From: JBHIBR01 sp046759145 [NCBI: Nitrospinota bacterium]
Lineage (GTDB): Bacteria > UBA8248
Reading direction: 5' to 3'
DNA length: 7,705 bases
Assembly: GCA_046759145.1 (NCBI GenBank)
Contig: JBHIBR010000074.1
Coordinates: forward strand, 1 to 7,705
The position numbers and the translations under genes are program-made. The notes below the pieces were generated by a model that saw only the letters and a program-made list of their open reading frames with translations, made no database searches and was not told the origin of the DNA. Below, piece after piece: positions 1 through 5,815 of the stretch (position 1 is the first letter of the stretch; the number at the start of each line of letters is the position of its first letter).

Positions 1-726
1 GATGGGCTCGCTCACCTCGCCCACCTTGAGGCGGAAGGCCACCTCTTCCAGCTCCCTCTGGAGCTGGCCCCGGGTGACCGCCCCCATCACGCCCCCGCTG
101 TTGCGGGTCCCCTCGAAGACCGAGCGCTCGCGGGCCACGCTCCCGAAGGAGCGCCCCTTGCGCAGCTCCGCCAGCACCTCCCGGGCCTCCCGGAGGGTGG
201 GAACCACGATGTGACTGAGCGTGACGGATTCCTTCTGGCTGAACTCATCGGGGTTGCGGTCGAAGTGCTCCCGCACCTCCGCCTCGCTCACCCTCACCTT
301 GGCCGTCACCTGTCGGCGGATGAGCTCCTGGACTGCGAGCGTGCGCACCACCAGGCGGAGTTGCTCCTAGACGGCCCGGCTTTTGTCAATGCCCCGGCGG
401 GTGGCCTCCTGGAAGAGGAGCTCGGTCTGGATGATCCCCGAGAGGAACTTGGCCTTCTGGCGGTTGGCCCGGATCTGCATGGGGAGGGGAAGGAGGGCGA
501 GGCGCTTGCGAAAATCCCCCATGGTGATGACCTTCCCGTTCACCCGGGCGAGGACGGCGCTATCGGGGGTCTTCGGCTTGGCCTTCGCACCCGGGGCGGG
601 CGGGGCACCCAAACGCGCAGGCGCGTTGGGGTCCCCGGGAGGGCGCACCTGCCCCCAGGCCAGGGCGGGGACCAAGAGGAGAAAAACCCAAAGCCAATGA
701 ACCATGGAACCAGGGGCTCTCCGCAT
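1..726 (-). pseudogene. SurA/PrsA-type periplasmic peptidyl-prolyl isomerase, partial, interrupted by in-frame TAG
   Basis: Parvulin-type cis-trans prolyl isomerase/chaperone for exported proteins, reading out of the window at its 3' end. Start ATG at 724-726 is preferred: it follows a GGGGAGGGGG purine tract and gives a charged n-region (MRRAPGSM). ATG 703-705 is the alternative. Residues 10-25 form a signal peptide core (WLWVFLLLVPALAWG) with no lipobox Cys. A Pro/Ala-rich linker follows, then a SurA_N-like segment (VNGKVITMGDF, residues 62-72). Codon 120 is TAG (367-369). The same frame then stays open for 122 codons to the window edge and carries recognisable PPIase sequence: SHIVV (171-175), a GRSFGSVARERS stretch (191-202), NSGGVMG (209-215) and AFRLKVGEVSEPI (230-242). 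The frame is therefore preserved and only one codon is bad. A CAG-to-TAG change, an assembly error or suppression are all possible. It is the last visible gene of the left minus-strand cluster, 91 nt after the MOSC gene. Family assignment is confident; functional status is not. Confidence 0.8.
367..369 (-). other. In-frame amber codon inside the PPIase gene
   Basis: On the minus strand, codon 120 reads TAG, between residues DKSRAV and EQLRLVVRTLAVQELI. The two flanks together make a continuous helical SurA-like segment, so no frameshift is needed to explain the break. One base change from CAG (Gln) or AAG (Lys) would restore the frame. Confidence 0.85.
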
Positions 727-740
727 CTCACCCCCCTCCC

Positions 741-799
741 CGCGGTCTCTCCAAGGCCGAGGACGCGGGGCTGAAAAACCTCCCTCCCGAGAGACCGCG
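741..799. repeat. 11-bp perfect inverted repeat between the MOSC and PPIase genes
   Basis: Arms CGCGGTCTCTC (741-751) and GAGAGACCGCG (789-799) are perfectly complementary, with 37 nt between them. The element fills most of the 91-nt gap upstream of the PPIase start at 726. On the minus strand a GGAGGGAGGTTTTTC tract lies inside the loop. It could be a 5'-leader structure, a protein-binding site or a weak attenuator. There is no T-tract after the second arm, so it is not a typical intrinsic terminator. Confidence 0.55.
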
Positions 800-817
800 C
801 CCCGCCTCCCCTTCTCC

Positions 818-1288
818 TCAGGAGGATTTCGGCCGGACGGGGTCTCCCACCCGGATCGCCCCTCCAGCCAGGATGCGCGCCCGCAGGCCCCCACGGTGAA
901 TGAGGCCAGCGGGGACGCCCTTCTGGGTGAGCCCCTCCATGTGCCCACACGGCTCGCAGAGTCGGGTCCCCTCCAGCAGCACCTCGCCCACCCAGAACTC
1001 TTGACCGACCAGGTGGTTCAGGGGAACGCCCCGCGTGGCGACATTGCGCCTCGTCGCGGGCGGCGAAAGCTCAATGCCCGACTCCCCCATGAGCGCTTCC
1101 ACCGCCTCGACCTCAATGAGCGTCACCTCCCGGCCGGAGCCGGGTTTCGTGGAATAGGTGCCACGCTCGCGGAAATACCGGTCCCCTTCGAGACCCTTGC
1201 CCGGAACCGCGCGGACCTCCGCCACAGACTCCATCGGCCCGGCGGCCTCCCCCGCAATGTGGATCGATACGACAGAGCCCTCCCACAT
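818..1288 (-). CDS. Stand-alone MOSC domain protein
   Basis: A 156-aa single-domain MOSC protein. The family, named after MOCO sulfurase C-terminal domains, includes YiiM/YuaD-like proteins that bind molybdenum cofactor or handle sulfur; the substrate here is not deducible. Visible hallmarks, numbered from ATG 1288, are VVSIHIA (6-12), GKGLEGDRY (30-38), RNVATRGVPLNHLVG (81-95), the conserved Cys pair in LCEPCGHME (C111 and C114) and IRVGDPV (145-151). The family Cys expected for sulfur chemistry is present, so the protein looks intact, and its length is normal. The start at 1286-1288 is chosen because GGAGGG lies 9 nt upstream. The ATG at 1295-1297 is abutted directly by that purine tract and is less likely. 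It lies 92 nt downstream of the uncharacterised gene and 91 nt upstream of the PPIase gene, all co-oriented, so co-transcription is plausible. Confidence 0.9.
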   Translation of the reverse strand: MWEGSVVSIHIAGEAAGPMESVAEVRAVPGKGLEGDRYFRERGTYSTKPGSGREVTLIEVEAVEALMGESGIELSPPATRRNVATRGVPLNHLVGQEFWVGEVLLEGTRLCEPCGHMEGLTQKGVPAGLIHRGGLRARILAGGAIRVGDPVRPKSS

Positions 1289-1380
1289 ACCGAACATCCC
1301 TCCCTCACCGAAACTCCCATTCCCAGGCCGGCCTCGGGGCACCCCTTACCCTCCCAAGCGGCGGACCGACCACGGGAGTC

Positions 1381-1896
1381 TTATATCCCCATCTGCCGGA
1401 TGAGATACTGGTAGAAGGGGTCGTGGAGGAACTCCCGCTCCAGGTTGAGCGCCTGGACGCACCACTCGAACTGCTCCGCCAGCTTGCGGAAGGTGGCGGC
1501 GGTGGGCCGCCAGGCGTCGTATTCGGAAACGAACCGGTAGGCCGCCTTGCCCTGAGAAACGTAGAACCCGGGGCTCACGCTGCGGGCCTCCAGGGTGTCG
1601 GGGTAGAGGCCGGTGAAGAAAAGACAGAAGTCCCCCATCTGGCGCCGCAGCTCCCGCTCGGGCATGCCCTCGGGGTCGAGGAACTCTTCGAGGAAATCCG
1701 CCACCGTCTCCAGCCGCCTCCCCCTCCCGCTCCTGCGGAAGAGGTTGTCCACATGCACGAAGTCCACCAGCATGCGGGAGACGTAGTCCACCACCTCCCG
1801 GTCGCGGAAGCCCACCGCATCGAAGCTGGAGCAGGTGAGCCGCCCCAGGTAGCGCCGCAGGGGGTGGCCCTCCGGGATGGAGACAACCTGGAACAC
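1381..1896 (-). CDS. Uncharacterised conserved-looking helical protein
   Basis: A 171-aa soluble, largely helical protein that I cannot name. Visible segments from GTG 1896 are RRYLGRLTCSSFDAVGFRD (14-32), an amphipathic stretch around EVVDYVSRMLVDFVHVDNLF (34-53), a basic RRSGRGRR patch (54-61), MGDFCLFFTGLYPD (87-100), GFYVSQGKAAYRF (110-122) and a C-terminal EFLHDPFYQYLIRQMGI. The pattern GDFCLFF-GLYPD followed by a YV-x-GKAAY motif resembles an uncharacterised family I have seen in deltaproteobacterial/myxobacterial genomes, but this is recollection only. Start choice: GTG 1894-1896 sits 5 nt after GAGG in CGAGGTGATC, an almost perfect anti-16S match. A promoter ends at 1967, so the upstream open frame (to 2586) cannot be translated and merely lies antisense to the riboswitch. 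It is the first gene of the left minus-strand cluster. No signal peptide or membrane helix. Confidence 0.72.
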   Translation of the reverse strand: MFQVVSIPEGHPLRRYLGRLTCSSFDAVGFRDREVVDYVSRMLVDFVHVDNLFRRSGRGRRLETVADFLEEFLDPEGMPERELRRQMGDFCLFFTGLYPDTLEARSVSPGFYVSQGKAAYRFVSEYDAWRPTAATFRKLAEQFEWCVQALNLEREFLHDPFYQYLIRQMGI

Positions 1897-1966
1897 GATC
1901 ACCTCGCCTCGGAAGGAGCCTCCTCCCCCGGGGACATGTCCTGCCACGAAGGCGATACCCAATTTC

Positions 1967-1995
1967 AATATATGGAAGAGGGGGCAGACCGTCAA
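1967..1995 (-). promoter_or_regulatory. Sigma-70-like promoter for the left minus-strand gene cluster
   Basis: On the minus strand, TTGACG (1995-1990) and TATATT (1972-1967) are separated by exactly 17 nt. That is 5/6 matches for each hexamer. Predicted initiation near 1960 leaves a leader of about 64 nt before the GTG start at 1896. It points away from the thi promoter. Confidence 0.65.
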
Positions 1996-2022
1996 CGAGG
2001 ACGCCGAGGCGCCCCCCTTTCC

Positions 2023-2051
2023 TTGACAACGCCCCCGCGCCAGCGGATACT
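2023..2051 (+). promoter_or_regulatory. Sigma-70-like promoter for the thi operon
   Basis: Perfect TTGACA at 2023-2028 and GATACT at 2046-2051 (4/6 match to TATAAT) are spaced by 17 nt. Initiation near 2058-2062 would place the first transcribed base just before P1 of the TPP riboswitch, as expected. The nearby TATAGT at 2055-2060 would need a 26-nt spacer and is not favoured. Confidence 0.7.
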
Positions 2052-2063
2052 TTTTATAGTGGA

Positions 2064-2218
2064 CCGCTAGGGGTGTCTCGGCTGAGAGTCCGGGGTCGAG
2101 TGACTCCCGGCGGGATGGCAGGCCCAAGGGGCGCCTGGGAGCCGGCCATTCCGCTTCCGCCTCCGGCGGAGGACAACCCTTAGAACCTGACCTGGGTAAT
2201 GCCAGCGTAGGGAAGCGG
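2064..2218 (+). ncRNA. TPP riboswitch (THI element) aptamer with enlarged P3 domain
   Basis: Senses thiamine pyrophosphate in the operon leader. P1 is CCGCT (2064-2068) with AGCGG (2214-2218). P2 is GGGT (2071-2074) with ACCC (2176-2179). The invariant CTGAGA is at 2082-2087. P3 is GTCC (2088-2091) with GGAC (2171-2174). P4 is CCT (2186-2188) with AGG (2209-2211). P5 is CTGG (2192-2195) with CCAG (2202-2205), and the conserved pyrophosphate-sensing half TAATGCCAGCG-AGGGAA is present. The P3 insertion is about 79 nt and appears to hold three hairpins: 2092-2107; a two-tier stem 2107-2145; and TCCGCC-TCC-GGCGGA at 2156-2170. Aptamer identity is very secure; the internal folds of the P3 insertion are inferred by eye. 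Confidence 0.95.
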
Positions 2219-2260
2219 CCCCGGAGAGAGCGTCCGCCGCAGGCGGATTGTAGGGGCCGC
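2215..2260 (+). promoter_or_regulatory. Candidate antiterminator of the TPP riboswitch
   Basis: GCGGCCCC (2215-2222) is a perfect 8-nt complement of GGGGCCGC (2253-2260). The 5' arm shares 2215-2218 with P1 of the aptamer and the 3' arm shares 2254-2260 with the terminator stem. It is therefore mutually exclusive with both the ligand-bound aptamer and the terminator. A small hairpin, TCCGCC-GCA-GGCGGA (2233-2247), would sit in its loop. Confidence 0.65.
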
Positions 2261-2288
2261 CCTCCGGAAGCGGGCGGCCCTTTCTTTT
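2254..2288 (+). terminator. Riboswitch-controlled intrinsic terminator upstream of thiS
   Basis: A perfect 9-bp GC stem, GGGCCGCCC (2254-2262) with GGGCGGCCC (2272-2280), has a 9-nt loop and is followed at once by TTTCTTTT (2281-2288). It ends 11 nt before the thiS start codon, so readthrough is required for expression of the operon. With TPP bound, P1 would hold the antiterminator arm and let this hairpin form. Confidence 0.88.
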
Positions 2289-2299
2289 GGGAGACCCCC

Positions 2300-2500
2300 T
2301 TGAAGCTTATCCTCAACGGCGAAGAGCGGGAGTTCGAAGGCCCCCTCACGGTGGCGGACCTGCTCGGGAGGCTCGGCATCAGCGGTGAGGGCATCGCCGT
2401 GGCGGTGAACCTCGAGGTGGTCCCCCGGGGCGAACTCGACCGGCGGCAGCTCGTCGAGGGGGAGCGGGTGGAGATCGTCCGGGCCGTGGGAGGCGGATGA
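2300..2500 (+). CDS. thiS: ThiS sulfur-carrier protein
   Basis: A 66-aa ubiquitin-fold sulfur carrier for thiazole biosynthesis. Its C-terminal glycine is adenylated by ThiF, converted to a thiocarboxylate and delivers sulfur to ThiG. The sequence has the expected N-terminal beta-strand (MKLILNGEE), [12 protein letters not shown] (16-27), the [11 protein letters not shown] stretch (33-43) and the required C-terminal VGGG ending in Gly-Gly. The start is TTG at 2300-2302, with GGAG 6 nt upstream (2290-2293). No in-frame ATG gives a full-length family member, so the rare start is well supported. It is first in the operon, directly after the riboswitch terminator. No thiF is visible in the window, so the activating enzyme must be encoded elsewhere or replaced by a related E1-like enzyme. 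Confidence 0.95.
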
Positions 2501-2531
2501 GGCGGCCCCGCCGGAAGGGGGCCCGGCCGCC
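2501..2531 (+). repeat. Intercistronic hairpin between thiS and thiG
   Basis: GGCGGCC (2501-2507) pairs perfectly with GGCCGCC (2525-2531) over a 17-nt loop, starting right after the thiS stop. There is no T-tract, so it is unlikely to terminate transcription. It could stabilise mRNA ends or tune thiG relative to thiS. In composition it resembles the terminator stem upstream of thiS, including a CCGGAAG loop segment. Confidence 0.4.
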
Positions 2532-2573
2532 GAGGGGTGCTCTCGCGGCGGGCGGGGCTGGGGAGAGGGAGAA

Positions 2574-3350
2574 ATGTCTTTGACACTTCGGATCGCAGAC
2601 CGGGAGTTCCGCTCCCGCCTCATCGTGGGCTCGGGCAAGTACACCTCCTTCGAGGTGATGCGGGAGGCCACCGAAGCCAGCGGGGCGGGGATGATCACGG
2701 TGGCCATCCGCCGCATTGACCTCAACGACCGCTCGGGCAAGGGCCTCTTGGATCACATCGACCGCGAGCGCATCGCCCTGCTTCCGAACACCGCCGGGTG
2801 CTACCGGCCGGAGGAGGCGGTGGCGACGGCGCGTCTGGCGCGGGAGGCGCTCGGGACCGACCTCATCAAGCTGGAGGTGATCGGAGACGAGAAGACCCTC
2901 TTCCCCGACAACGAGGGCCTCCTGGAGGCAGCCCGCATCCTGGTGCGGGAGGGCTTCATCGTCCTCCCCTACTGCATCGACGACCCGGTGGTATGCAAAA
3001 AGCTCGAGGAGGTGGGCTGCGCCGCCGTCATGCCCCTCGCCGCCCCCATCGGCTCGGGCCTCGGCATCCGCAACCCGCATAACCTCCAGATCATCCTCGA
3101 GCAGGCCCGCGTGCCCGTGATCGTGGACGCGGGCGTGGGGGTGGCCTCGGACGCCGCCATCTGCATGGAGATAGGCTGCGACGGGGTGCTCATGAACACC
3201 GCCATCGCCGGGGCGGGCGACCCCGTCAAGATGGCCCGGGCGATGAAGCTCGCCATGGAGGCGGGCAGGCTCGCCTTCGAAGCCGGGCGCATACCTAAGA
3301 AACTCTACGCCGCCGCCAGCAGCCCGCTGGCGGGGGTGATCGGGACCTGA
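2574..3350 (+). CDS. thiG: ThiG thiazole synthase
   Basis: A 258-aa TIM-barrel enzyme. It condenses 1-deoxy-D-xylulose 5-phosphate, dehydroglycine and the sulfur of ThiS thiocarboxylate into the thiazole phosphate carboxylate of thiamine. Family signatures are all in place: [13 protein letters not shown] (14-26), VAIRR (43-47), LLPNTAGC (69-76), the [10 protein letters not shown] segment with K99 as the likely Schiff-base lysine, [17 protein letters not shown] (112-128), [12 protein letters not shown] (157-168), [12 protein letters not shown] (184-195), [10 protein letters not shown] (203-212) and the C-terminal [12 protein letters not shown]. Length is typical and no key residue is missing. 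The ATG is preceded by a GGGGAGAGGGAG purine tract. It follows thiS by 73 nt. The fourth substrate, dehydroglycine, would come from ThiH or ThiO, neither of which lies in the window. Confidence 0.97.
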
Positions 3351-3371
3351 GGAGGGGGGAGGAGGCAGAGG

Positions 3372-3791
3372 ATGGTGACGGATTCGTCTGAGCCCTCCCG
3401 GGGAAGGAAATCGAGCACGCCTCGGGGCAGGAGAGGGGAGAAAAAATCGCTGGCGCTGCGAGATAAAACCGGGCAGAGACAGAAGGCCAGCGAGAAAAAA
3501 CGCCGGGAGCTCCAGCTCACACCTTTAGAGAAGGCGCGCTTGCAAGGCTACTTCGAGCGGGGAGCTTTGCGCGGGAAAAAGAAACTCATCTCCTCCTTCG
3601 GCGAGCCATTGAAGGAGCCCCTTATCATTCAGTTCGACGCCGAAGACGCGGCGGACGGCCTGTACACCCTCATGACTACCGGGGTCACGCTGGGGGTCTC
3701 CAGCACAGTGTCCGTGGCGACTTCAACGGCGCAAATCGATGCCCTCAAGAAGGAGGGCATTAATTTCCGAGTTTTTGATCTTCCAGACTGA
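3372..3791 (+). CDS. Uncharacterised protein with basic tail, first gene of a two-gene insert in the thi operon
   Basis: A 139-aa protein of unknown function. Residues 1-50 are strongly basic and low-complexity (many K/R/S, for example GRKSSTPRGRRGEKKS), probably disordered and possibly nucleic-acid binding. A helix-like TPLEKARLQGYFERG (50-64) follows, then a compact C-terminal domain: a strand PLIIQFDAE, a helix DAADGLYTLMTTGVTLGV, a strand SSTVSVATS, a helix TAQIDALKKEG and a final strand NFRVFDLP. The ATG has a good ribosome site (GAGGAGGCAGAGG immediately upstream) and lies 21 nt after the thiG stop, so it belongs to the thi transcript. Its stop TGA shares its A with the ATG of the next gene, implying translational coupling. 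GC content is visibly lower than in thiG and thiE. I recognise no thiamine-pathway motif; a small two-component module such as a regulator or toxin-antitoxin pair is speculation. Confidence 0.75.
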   Translation: MVTDSSEPSRGRKSSTPRGRRGEKKSLALRDKTGQRQKASEKKRRELQLTPLEKARLQGYFERGALRGKKKLISSFGEPLKEPLIIQFDAEDAADGLYTLMTTGVTLGVSSTVSVATSTAQIDALKKEGINFRVFDLPD

Positions 3792-4126
3792 TGCCCCCGA
3801 GGGCAAAACACAGCAAGGGCCCTCGAGGTGCACGAGTACGCTACGAGTTCCTTGTTCCCACGTACTATAGTCCCCGACGTCAAGTTGAACGCCTCAAGTT
3901 CGAGTGCCTTGAAATCCTTCTGGCGGAGTTCTTCGAAGGATACAGTGAGTACGCCGGCGAGGGAGCCTGGCGATTCTACCGTAAAGAGAAGCACATAAAG
4001 TACGAGGTCGATGTCCGGGACAATGCATTCACACGGCAGTTCTTTGGACATTTTCGCCGCATCCTGGAGAAATGGTTTCACCAAGAGCGCATCTGGATGA
4101 CACGCAGTAGGATCGAGCTGGTTTGA
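3791..4126 (+). CDS. Uncharacterised small alpha/beta protein, second gene of the insert
   Basis: A 111-aa protein of unknown function. After a basic leader (MPPRAKHSKGPRGARV) the predicted order is strand RYEFLVPTY, helix VERLKFECLEILLAEFFEG, strand YSEYAGEGAWRF, strand HIKYEVDVRD, helix TRQFFGHFRRILEKWFHQE, strand RIWMTRSRIELV. This beta-alpha-beta-beta-alpha-beta order suggests a ferredoxin-like fold. The pattern YEFLVP ... F-G ... G-W ... YEV-V ... LE--F-Q--I resembles small orphan proteins of similar length that I have seen in varied genomes, without a known function. The start overlaps the previous stop (TGATG, 3789-3793), a classic coupled arrangement, and no separate ribosome site is needed. 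GC is near 50-55%, well below the flanking thi genes. A 46-nt gap separates it from thiE. Confidence 0.75.
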   Translation: MPPRAKHSKGPRGARVRYEFLVPTYYSPRRQVERLKFECLEILLAEFFEGYSEYAGEGAWRFYRKEKHIKYEVDVRDNAFTRQFFGHFRRILEKWFHQERIWMTRSRIELV

Positions 4127-4172
4127 ACGGCCACCGCCGGTCTTTGAGACTCCGCGGGCCATCGAATCCCAC

Positions 4173-4802
4173 ATGCTCCCACGCCTCTACCTGATCACCG
4201 ACCGCCAGGCCATCCCCGCGTCGGTCCACCGAACGGGGGGAGACCTCGTGGGCGCGGTAGAAGGGGCGCTCCGGGGGGGTGTGCGGATGGTCCAGCTCCG
4301 GGAGAAGGATCTCCCCCCCCGGGAGCGCTACCGCCTCGTCCTCGCTCTCGTCGAGCGCTGTGCCGTCCACGGGGCGCGCCTTCTGGTGAACACGACCGCC
4401 GACCTCGCCCTCGCGGCGGGCGCGGACGGGGTGCACCTGGGGAGAGATACCCTCCCGGTGAGCGCCGTGCGCGAGAAGCTGGGATTCCGGGGGCTCATCG
4501 GCTACTCCGCCCACGGGACGGAGGAAGCACGCGCGGCGGTCGAGGCGGGGGCAGATTTTGTGACCTTCAGCCCCATCTTCGCCACAAAACCCGGCTACGG
4601 CCCCGCGGTGGGAGTTGAGGCGCTTCGCACAGTCTGCGCGAGGCTTAAGGCGCCCACCTTCGCTCTCGGAGGGATCACCGCGGCCAACGTGCGAGAGGCC
4701 CTGGCGGCCGGGGCCCACGGCGTAGCCCTGATCTCGGCCATCCTCTCCGCGCCCGACCCCGAGCGGGCGGCGCGGGAGCTGGTGGAGGCGGTGGGGGGAT
4801 GA
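4173..4802 (+). CDS. thiE: ThiE/TenI-family protein, probable thiamine-phosphate synthase
   Basis: A 209-aa TIM-barrel protein. ThiE joins hydroxymethylpyrimidine diphosphate and thiazole phosphate to give thiamine phosphate. TenI relatives tautomerise the ThiG product instead. Seen: LYLITDR (5-11), MVQLREKDL (39-47, with the ThiE-type Arg43 and Lys45), GADGVHLG (83-90), GYSAHGTEEA (110-119), FSPIFATKPGYGPAVG (132-147), ALGGI (164-168) and a C-terminal ALISAIL (185-191). Length is normal. Oddity: the two Asp residues that bind Mg-pyrophosphate in ThiE (in the ND and GQED motifs) are replaced here. The sites read VNTT (72-75) and GRDTLP (90-95), with an Asp only one position early in the latter. 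That, plus the YGPAVG motif, makes the protein TenI-like in part. No Shine-Dalgarno sequence is evident before the ATG. It closes the visible thi operon. Confidence 0.85.
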   Translation: MLPRLYLITDRQAIPASVHRTGGDLVGAVEGALRGGVRMVQLREKDLPPRERYRLVLALVERCAVHGARLLVNTTADLALAAGADGVHLGRDTLPVSAVREKLGFRGLIGYSAHGTEEARAAVEAGADFVTFSPIFATKPGYGPAVGVEALRTVCARLKAPTFALGGITAANVREALAAGAHGVALISAILSAPDPERAARELVEAVGG

Positions 4803-4999: not shown

Positions 5000-5740
5000 T
5001 TACGGTATTTTTGTCGTGGGTTCCCATTTCGCTAGCATAGCCTTCTGTTTTCGCCCGATTCCCATTTTCGCCCCAAGCGAACTCCCCAAAGGTACCAATG
5101 TTAAAATCAAGAAAGCCCCGGGACTAAAACTTCTGATGATCCACTCAGATCTACTTGATTCGCTTATAAGTTTTTTGGCAATTGCTTCATCGGCAATTGC
5201 GTCAAACCCATAAGAAAAGGCCAATAAAACCAAAAATGAATAGAAGACAAGTAAAGGAACGGCAAAACATATATTTAAGACCCGGGTATAGCCTCCATAC
5301 ATTCCAAACAGATCAGACCTATAAAAGTTAAATGGAGCGCCTTTCTCATGTACTTCAGATTCTGAACAAACGTATTCTTCCAGTTTTCGAATGTACATCC
5401 TATACGACCAGAGTTCCCGGTTAACGTATGCCCATCCGGCAAACCAGATGTTGAAGCACAGTGCCAATATTATTGCCAAGAGTCCTACAATTCCCGGATC
5501 CAGATTTTTTAAATTGTTGATCGTTAGGGCTCCTATCGCCGCAAGTGCAACTCCTATCATAGCGAGAGTACGGTAATAAAGGCGGTAGATTTCCAAGTAG
5601 AAATGATGAAGTGTGTTATATTCCTGCAAGGCGCAGTCGAGAGAAGAAGGCTTCGTACCAGGCATTGGAGGAGGAGGCTTCATATCAGGCATTGAACGGA
5701 AGAGTCTCCTTAGCGCTCCAAGTAATCCGAAATTTCCCAT
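5000..5740 (-). CDS. Four-helix membrane protein of unknown function in a low-GC island
   Basis: A 246-aa inner-membrane protein, numbered from ATG 5740. A short cytoplasmic-looking N-terminus carries RRLFRS and a proline-rich repeat (MPDMKPPPP-MPGTKPSS, 17-33). An aromatic helix (EYNTLHHFYLEIYRLYYR, 40-57) leads into TM1 (58-78) and TM2 (83-106). A soluble loop of about 48 residues with charged and aromatic residues follows, then TM3 (154-176) and TM4 (206-224), and a basic tail. The aromatic helix plus closely spaced TM hairpin is reminiscent of SLATT-like 2TM effectors, but no diagnostic motif was matched. Start is uncertain: TTG 5815 keeps the frame open, but its TTGACA looks like a -35 box. 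ATG 5692 has AAGGAG 13 nt upstream. Base composition is much more AT-rich than every neighbour, suggesting recent transfer. It stands alone, so context gives no function. Confidence 0.7.
   Translation of the reverse strand: MGNFGLLGALRRLFRSMPDMKPPPPMPGTKPSSLDCALQEYNTLHHFYLEIYRLYYRTLAMIGVALAAIGALTINNLKNLDPGIVGLLAIILALCFNIWFAGWAYVNRELWSYRMYIRKLEEYVCSESEVHEKGAPFNFYRSDLFGMYGGYTRVLNICFAVPLLVFYSFLVLLAFSYGFDAIADEAIAKKLISESSRSEWIIRSFSPGAFLILTLVPLGSSLGAKMGIGRKQKAMLAKWEPTTKIP
5649..5694. repeat. Imperfect 27-bp-period direct repeat in the membrane-protein gene
   Basis: GGCTTCGTACCAGGCATTG (5649-5667) and GGCTTCATATCAGGCATTG (5676-5694) match at 16 of 19 positions, exactly 27 bp apart. On the coding (minus) strand this is a duplicated nine-residue unit, MPDMKPPPP then MPGTKPSSL, in the proline-rich segment before the first membrane helix. 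It looks like an in-frame internal duplication. Confidence 0.7.
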
Positions 5741-5786
5741 ATCAAAATGAGTCCGCCCAAAGAGGGTGCCAACCGGGCCGAGAGCG

Positions 5787-5815
5787 AGTACGGTCCTGCT
5801 TCTTACCTTTGTCAA
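5787..5815 (-). promoter_or_regulatory. Possible promoter of the membrane-protein gene
   Basis: On the minus strand a perfect TTGACA (5815-5810) is followed after 17 nt by CGTACT (5792-5787), which matches TATAAT at only 3/6 positions. Initiation near 5780 would suit an ATG start at 5740 and argues against reading the TTG of this box as the start codon. Confidence 0.35.

Follow-up and report, generated by a model that had tools for sequence, protein, structure and literature searches.

Two small genes lying between thiG and thiE in the window (the whole 7,705-nucleotide stretch of DNA analysed) belong to a family of paired genes, designated X and Y, which occurs in several phylum samples and mostly away from thi genes. 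The pair is likely to be a mobile module, and in its decaying copies Y is the gene that is interrupted first. Our best guess, offered tentatively, is that X-Y is a horizontally moving pair of the type II toxin-antitoxin (TA) kind, in which X would be the antitoxin and Y the toxin. This assignment is based on the one-sided decay, on the gene order and on the TA genes found near some of the loci.

The X-Y pair in the thi operon

All features of the operon are on the + strand. Its leader contains a sequence (2059..2230) matching the full TPP riboswitch aptamer model (Rfam RF00059, model positions 1-105) with 51.3 bits and an E-value of 4.9e-8, slightly below the Rfam gathering score of 54.3. The putative riboswitch spans 172 bases, and annotation at the gathering cut-off would miss it. 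It is followed by thiS (2300..2500; Pfam PF02597, E 1.9e-14) and thiG (2574..3350; PF05690, ThiG, E 2e-114), and then by a purine-rich stretch with GGAGG (3351..3371), a likely ribosome-binding sequence which abuts X. Gene X (3372..3791) codes for 139 amino acids and consists of a basic N-terminal extension (approximately residues 1-82) and the X core (approximately residues 83-139). It was recognised by a match of the X-core profile at 3618-3788 and by its place upstream of Y, as in other pairs. Gene Y (3791..4126) codes for 111 amino acids, with a basic N-terminal tail and a predicted ferredoxin-like domain, and was recognised by a homologue in genome G037 (E 2.9e-38), by a structure model and by a motif count. 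The last gene is thiE (4173..4802; Pfam PF02581, TMP-TENI, E 2.6e-53, and NCBIfam TIGR00693 over its cut-off).

An earlier note on this DNA had described two open reading frames between thiG and thiE with a TGATG overlap, basic N-terminal tails on both products and a GC content lower than in both flanks. All of these are present in the sequence. X and Y overlap by one base, the A, and the GC content of the module is 56% compared with 70-72% around it (0.560 versus 0.697 for thiS-thiG and 0.722 for thiE). The lowest-GC 755-base stretch of positions 1-4802 begins at 3441, over the module, and GC3 values are 0.71 for X and 0.62 for Y versus 0.92 for thiG and 0.85 for thiE. The suggestion that X and Y would be co-expressed with thiazole synthesis behind the riboswitch is supported with reserve.

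As judged from homologues which keep the same order, X and Y are real genes and not chance open reading frames. Neither had a match at E<=1 in Pfam, NCBIfam or PADLOC; a PHROG search gave one weak match for X (E 0.045) and none for Y.

Downstream of the operon, a gene on the opposite strand (5000-5815, -) codes for 271 amino acids with membrane-like segments. It has an isolated low GC content, 42-48% versus 65-70% in the surrounding DNA, and all of its Pfam matches are sub-threshold (8xMP, E 0.027). It is possibly a second foreign gene beside the operon.

Distribution of X-Y pairs

Open reading frames read around Y hits revealed 35 further X-Y pairs, spread over 27 genomes of seven phylum samples, giving 36 pairs with the window. 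In all 36 pairs X is directly upstream of Y on the same strand. A survey of whether the homologues co-occur had been proposed in the earlier note; they do, at 36 loci including the window, and its idea of a nameless two-gene module holds, as the homologues occur in pairs, appear mobile and fall into no named family. Paired copies were present in 1/18, 1/16, 5/297, 10/245, 8/201, 1/297 and 1/77 genomes of the respective samples, with up to three pairs per genome. Any match to Y profiles was seen in 1/16, 7/247, 11/297, 12/245, 9/201, 5/297 and 1/77 genomes, the last two counts being lower bounds as the thresholds were stricter there; the 247-genome sample represents the same phylum as the first 297-genome sample, and this phylum was counted once. 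Y thresholds were E 0.01 (18 genomes), 0.001 (16 and 247), 1e-4 (first 297, 245 and 201) and 1e-8 (second 297 and 77).

X of locus L151 (G665) was recognised by eye only and is missed by the X profile, while those of L181, L187 and L189 gave E-values of 1e-7, 1e-4 and 5e-8 with a profile excluding these three. The pair count leaves out solitary Y types (L119-L123, L127, L140, L195-L198), helix-turn-helix proteins recognised by eye (L124, L128), and Y remnants or partial Ys near which X was undetected (L139, L152, L156, L158 and L143, the last of which adjoins a pair).

A search of the 245 genomes with the X profile gave 13 places in 10 genomes. Twelve of these are X-Y loci, and the thirteenth is a broken X without Y. 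Adjacent co-directional small genes occurring together, as expected of a type II TA module, were found with either gene as the starting point (12 of 13 X places; 35 pairs among Y hits), the counterweight being the four loci where no X was detected with a Y remnant or partial Y. When genomes behind 27 of the 80 thiG loci described below were searched with Y, matches at E<=0.1 were obtained in four of the 27. The clear match was in G002 (E 2.0e-9), where an adjoining overlapping small open reading frame is X; those in G013 (E 0.092) and G025 (E 0.05) were weak.

Direct searches for window X and Y in phages and viral contigs found neither. No copy of the pair was detected in 72,556 plasmid records, where relaxing the threshold to E 10 yielded two pieces at chance level; a more typical Y used as the query matched 17 plasmid records, and all five that were inspected carry Y without X. 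The joined window cores found no relative among genome contigs. The titles and abstract openings returned by a literature search contain nothing on an X-Y pair.

Locus L186 (G647:C137) has two tandem X genes before a single Y. The record titled Cyanobacteria (L026 / G017) shares a phylum sample with one titled Acidobacteria (G023), and one of the titles is probably wrong.

Mobility and base composition

Module DNA is 84.1% identical between G002 and G128 and 82.0% identical between G128 and G613, with a three-way range of 78.8-84.1%. These genomes come from three different phylum samples (of 16, the first 297 and 201 genomes, respectively). When 800-base flanks of 14 loci were compared by blastn (E<=1e-3), the only matches were between G517 and G548, which are a close pair, and between the two sides of G655; there was none among G002, G128 and G613. 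High identity across phyla within unrelated flanks, together with the patchy and multi-copy occurrence and the low GC content, makes it likely that X-Y is a mobile module.

In G655 the module is flanked on both sides by direct repeats of 78 and 59 bases, which are 92 and 95% identical (L144, 1311-1433 and 2134-2289). These are possibly a trace of its movement.

The GC content of X-Y is below that of the flanks in 29 of 30 loci, by 5.8 points on average (Wilcoxon p 6e-6). The earlier note had considered a mobile module using the promoter of the operon. The family does appear to be mobile; low GC is family-wide and was rejected as a sign of recent arrival.

Decay of the pair

When the pairs were classified by eye, 25 of the 36 had both frames open, nine had an interrupted Y beside an open X (L168, L169, L182, L184, L185, L188, L191, L192 and L199), two had both genes broken and none had a disrupted X beside an intact Y; MAG assembly errors may add breaks to these counts, which do not include L139, L152, L156 and L158, where a Y remnant or partial Y has no detectable X. 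The open class includes G551 and G393:C119, where Y is intact and a stop inside the match, at the C-terminal end, cuts X slightly short of the profile but leaves the core whole. In L185 the X gene carries a short in-frame deletion. Both of the doubly broken pairs are in L190 (G659:C74), as two decayed copies approximately 2 kb apart; a third copy, with a broken Y, is located on contig C114 of the same genome.

Most loci were discovered through Y, a bias that should work in favour of intact Y genes. If damage followed length (106 versus 73 positions), the probability of finding nine of nine breaks in Y would be about 0.009. Loss of the toxin before the antitoxin in decaying copies would be expected of type II TA modules, and here the corresponding counts are nine versus none among 36 pairs. 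Such one-sided decay would be expected if Y harmed the cell without X.

Protein Y

A single-chain structure model of Y made with no alignment (pLDDT 70.8) has strands at residues 13-21, 60-65, 68-76 and 102-110 and helices at 30-50 and 79-98. This E-H-E-E-H-E order agrees with the β-α-β-β-α-β order predicted in the earlier note, and according to the model Y has a ferredoxin-like fold. A designed ferredoxin fold was the best match (Z 10.1 over 92 residues, 2.3 A). Similar Z values were reached by monooxygenases, Dabb proteins, ribosomal proteins and IS200-type transposases, and because so many unrelated ferredoxin-like folds score alike the function of Y was not read from its fold. The profile and structure searches suggested in the earlier note yielded no known function: PDB profile searches gave nothing convincing, and Foldseek with the Y model gave no hit at E<=0.001.

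Nineteen paired Y proteins, selected by hand, were aligned for a profile. Invariant positions are P, the G of G-x-W and the Q of F-x-Q, and the W is present in 18 of the 19. The Asp of an N-D-G loop is also present in 18 of the 19; only the window departs from this, with Pro at the position, and G037 keeps the Asp.

Comparison of this profile with six DUF3574 (PF12098) members taken from ten loci gave an alignment of 91 columns with a probability of 94% (E 1.4e-7, single comparison). G-x-W-like and F-x-Q motifs are common to both, and on this profile-profile evidence Y is distantly related to DUF3574, a family without assigned function. The relation is seen by profile-profile comparison only: Y does not reach the Pfam cut-off (25 bits), and hmmscan gave no match at E<=1. 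DUF3574 members differ from Y in a signal-like N-terminal segment (seen by eye), and none of the ten fetched DUF3574 loci had a match to the X profile.

Clear relatives of Y were found among solitary Y-like proteins (WP_022802695.1, WP_231043718.1; phrog_3543), six of which matched the paired-Y profile with a probability of 99% and an E-value of 2.9e-19. Unlike paired Y, they are scattered in ordinary neighbourhoods with an X partner undetected. The phage family phrog_3543 itself, which has no assigned function, was matched by two of seven paired Y proteins (best E 3.1e-05). Solitary Y-like genes were seen at L119, L120, L121, L140, L195-L198 and the plasmid loci L160-L164; in the five inspected plasmid records they are annotated as hypothetical protein.

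VapD is toxin-antitoxin related. Small size and a ferredoxin-like fold are shared by Y with the Cas2/VapD-like ferredoxin-fold nucleases (PMC10491678); no sequence match was seen, and the likeness is one of fold.

Protein X

The X core is approximately 73 amino acids long. An alignment of 17 X rows shows I4 and L43 to be invariant, with F6 and L19 close to invariant. The core of window X (3618-3788) matches with an E-value of 2e-21 a profile that contains window X itself. With a profile made without it, the similarity to short X proteins gave an E-value of 1e-4 in a two-sequence search and an hhalign probability of 59%, and the relationship of window X to short X, which rests on place as well as on this modest score, is itself put forward modestly. 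The structure model of X was poor (single chain, pLDDT 50.2) and was kept out of fold searches. No known DNA-binding domain was seen in X, nor any match to a known toxin or antitoxin family.

The end of the X frame and the start of the Y frame share 38-53 nt in 13 of 20 tabulated pairs (e.g. L107, L109, L132 and L146); there the same DNA, read in two frames, codes for the X C-terminal tail and the Y N-terminus. The corresponding overlap is 1 nt in the window, and in G037 the two genes are 3 nt apart; in both of these genomes X is extended at the N-terminus and is without the C-terminal tail seen in most other X proteins. It is a guess that the short hydrophobic tails of other X proteins could be degradation signals. 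In L187 (G128:C22) X is longer, 211 amino acids, with an X-like C-terminal part, and may be fused to another domain.

Toxin-antitoxin-like reading of the pair

The order, size and overlap of X and Y are those of many type II modules. X-Y also resembles such modules in being two small co-directional and often overlapping genes, in its patchy, multi-copy and horizontally spread occurrence, in the decay of one partner while the other stays open, and in the presence of PIN, HepT or CopG antitoxin genes near some loci. It differs in that X and Y both fall outside the named toxin and antitoxin families (Pfam and PADLOC gave no match to a recognised domain of either kind), in that the pair was not found on plasmids and in that Y has solitary relatives. 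Occurrence of Y relatives without X in ordinary neighbourhoods would be odd for a toxin.

Neighbouring genes were analyzed in one Pfam search of 75 open reading frames, 72 of them chosen from 160 listed and three added by hand. No family was present in more than two of the 75 proteins. Two-member families, among the first 25 of 109, were signalling domains, MazG types, Yip1, nucleotidyltransferase types, PIN and DUF2283. Ten visually selected neighbours were scanned singly, with no control set, and TA families among them were PIN (L172, L188) and HepT-like with NTP_transf_2 (L178). CopG_antitoxin was found beside an MqsA-like protein below its cut-off (L183), BrnT_toxin approximately 3 kb from the pair (L168), and DUF2442 with DUF4160 (L167). 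The last two families are sometimes listed as toxin-antitoxin candidates.

In the mechanism that we propose, X would be translated first and act as the antitoxin. Y, translationally coupled to it and ferredoxin-like, would act as the toxin and would be inactive while bound to X in a complex. The window copy would be lineage-specific, lodged between thiG and thiE and read from the TPP-riboswitch-controlled thi transcript. Toxicity, neutralisation, complex formation and co-transcription are predictions of this scheme. As window Y is without the near-invariant Asp and window X without the usual tail, the window copy may be disarmed or repurposed.

A different kind of mobile cassette is almost as probable as this scheme, although we would give neither an even chance: X-Y could be a ligand-binding or enzymatic ferredoxin-like pair, or a defence or counter-defence unit, which is occasionally useful and not toxic. 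The generic fold of Y with its diverse matches at similar Z, the ordinary metabolic genes adjoining solitary Y relatives, the phrog_3543 matches and the retention of the pair in the thi operon of two lineages are consistent with such a cassette, whereas decay that hits Y first, the lack of a constant pathway partner among the 75 neighbours and the lack of a PADLOC match speak against it. If Y is not toxic, X-Y is still a widespread nameless mobile two-gene unit.

As an unannotated pair that crosses phyla and decays mainly one-sidedly, X-Y offers a specific candidate, open to experiment, for a new TA family. DUF3574-like proteins gain a relative with a genetic partner, and the thi-operon copy would exemplify how a mobile module can settle under the control of a metabolite riboswitch. 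The most detailed version of this reading is rather doubtful: an undescribed TA family of little-studied phyla, in which a small antitoxin is paired with a DUF3574-like toxin of ferredoxin fold, and which in one lineage was captured within the thiazole operon under a TPP riboswitch and is probably disarmed, with expression tracking thiamine state.

Linkage to thi genes and history of the insertion

The thiS, thiG and thiE genes of the window were compared by tblastn with 34 fetched pair loci of approximately 3-12 kb each, which hold 35 pairs, and a thi gene was found in none but G037. Linkage of the pair to thi genes, also proposed for survey in the earlier note, is therefore seen in two of 36 pairs, the window and G037. 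X and Y were absent at E<=1 from the best 80 of 552 thiG loci, the 552 being relatives found among 592 stretches.

G037 belongs to the phylum sample of G003 (record titled Tectomicrobia), which comprises 18 genomes and in which it alone carries the pair. X, Y and thiE of G037 are located downstream of the end of thiG, the contig terminating inside the last thiG codons (SSPLAGVVGS and a stop). Its Y is 61% identical to window Y over the matched part (E 2.9e-38), and global identities between the two genomes are 59.1% for X, 52.3% for Y and 50.7% for thiE, with 63.3% in the shared X core. Of the 18 genomes, 15 gave a thiG match, the exceptions being G028, G036 and G037. In all 15 thiE lies 19 to 291 bases after thiG with no X or Y between them, X matches in this interval having E-values of 6.5 or worse. 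The thiG-X-Y-thiE order, looked for across relatives as the earlier note had suggested, was found in one further genome, G037, and is rare even among relatives.

The presence of this order in a second genome, with X and Y just 59% and 52% identical to those of the window, speaks against a recent insertion in its simple form. The X comparison gave dN 0.30 and dS 2.5, i.e. synonymous sites are saturated; dS for Y was not computable. An intact pair in G037 at 52-59% identity suggests a selected function beyond selfish upkeep and counts against the toxin-antitoxin reading. The thi-linked lineage could have domesticated the mobile pair, for example as a regulator or as RNA-binding proteins with basic tails, with the pair remaining selfish elsewhere. 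The basic N-terminal extensions of X and Y, the absence of the X tail and of the long overlap, the loss of the Asp in window Y, and conservation of the X protein at saturated synonymous divergence would fit domestication, but only two genomes are concerned, G037 retains the Asp, and GC3 is far below that of the flanks in both copies (in G037, 0.50 for X and 0.40 for Y versus 0.77 for thiE), which is odd for a long-settled gene. We consider domestication unlikely. An unrecognised accessory to thiazole or thiamine synthesis under riboswitch control, as proposed in the earlier note, is highly improbable: the arrangement and the N-terminal extension of X are common to the window and G037, but thiG is followed by thiE without X and Y in 15 of the 17 other genomes (the remaining two have no thiG match), the best 80 thiG loci have neither gene, and 33 of the 34 fetched pair loci have no match to thiS, thiG or thiE.

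A Shine-Dalgarno-like sequence is absent before thiE in the window and in 15 of 16 relatives, for which thiE start sites were extrapolated from the alignment. The earlier note was right about this absence; its interpretation as a scar of the insertion was rejected, since those 15 relatives carry no insertion and the only one of the 16 with a short Shine-Dalgarno-like match is G037, which bears the insertion.

The thiG tree places the window as sister to the G003 sample and L062 with a support of 0.83, G037 being without thiG. A simple sister relationship of the window and G037 was tried with the thiE tree, which does not group them (supports 0.07 to 1.0). There may have been one ancestral insertion with later loss, or two arrivals at the same site.

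In L003 (4978-5268) and L092, thiG and thiE are separated by 291 and 269 bases, respectively, without X or Y, and the gap in L003 appears repeat-like by eye.
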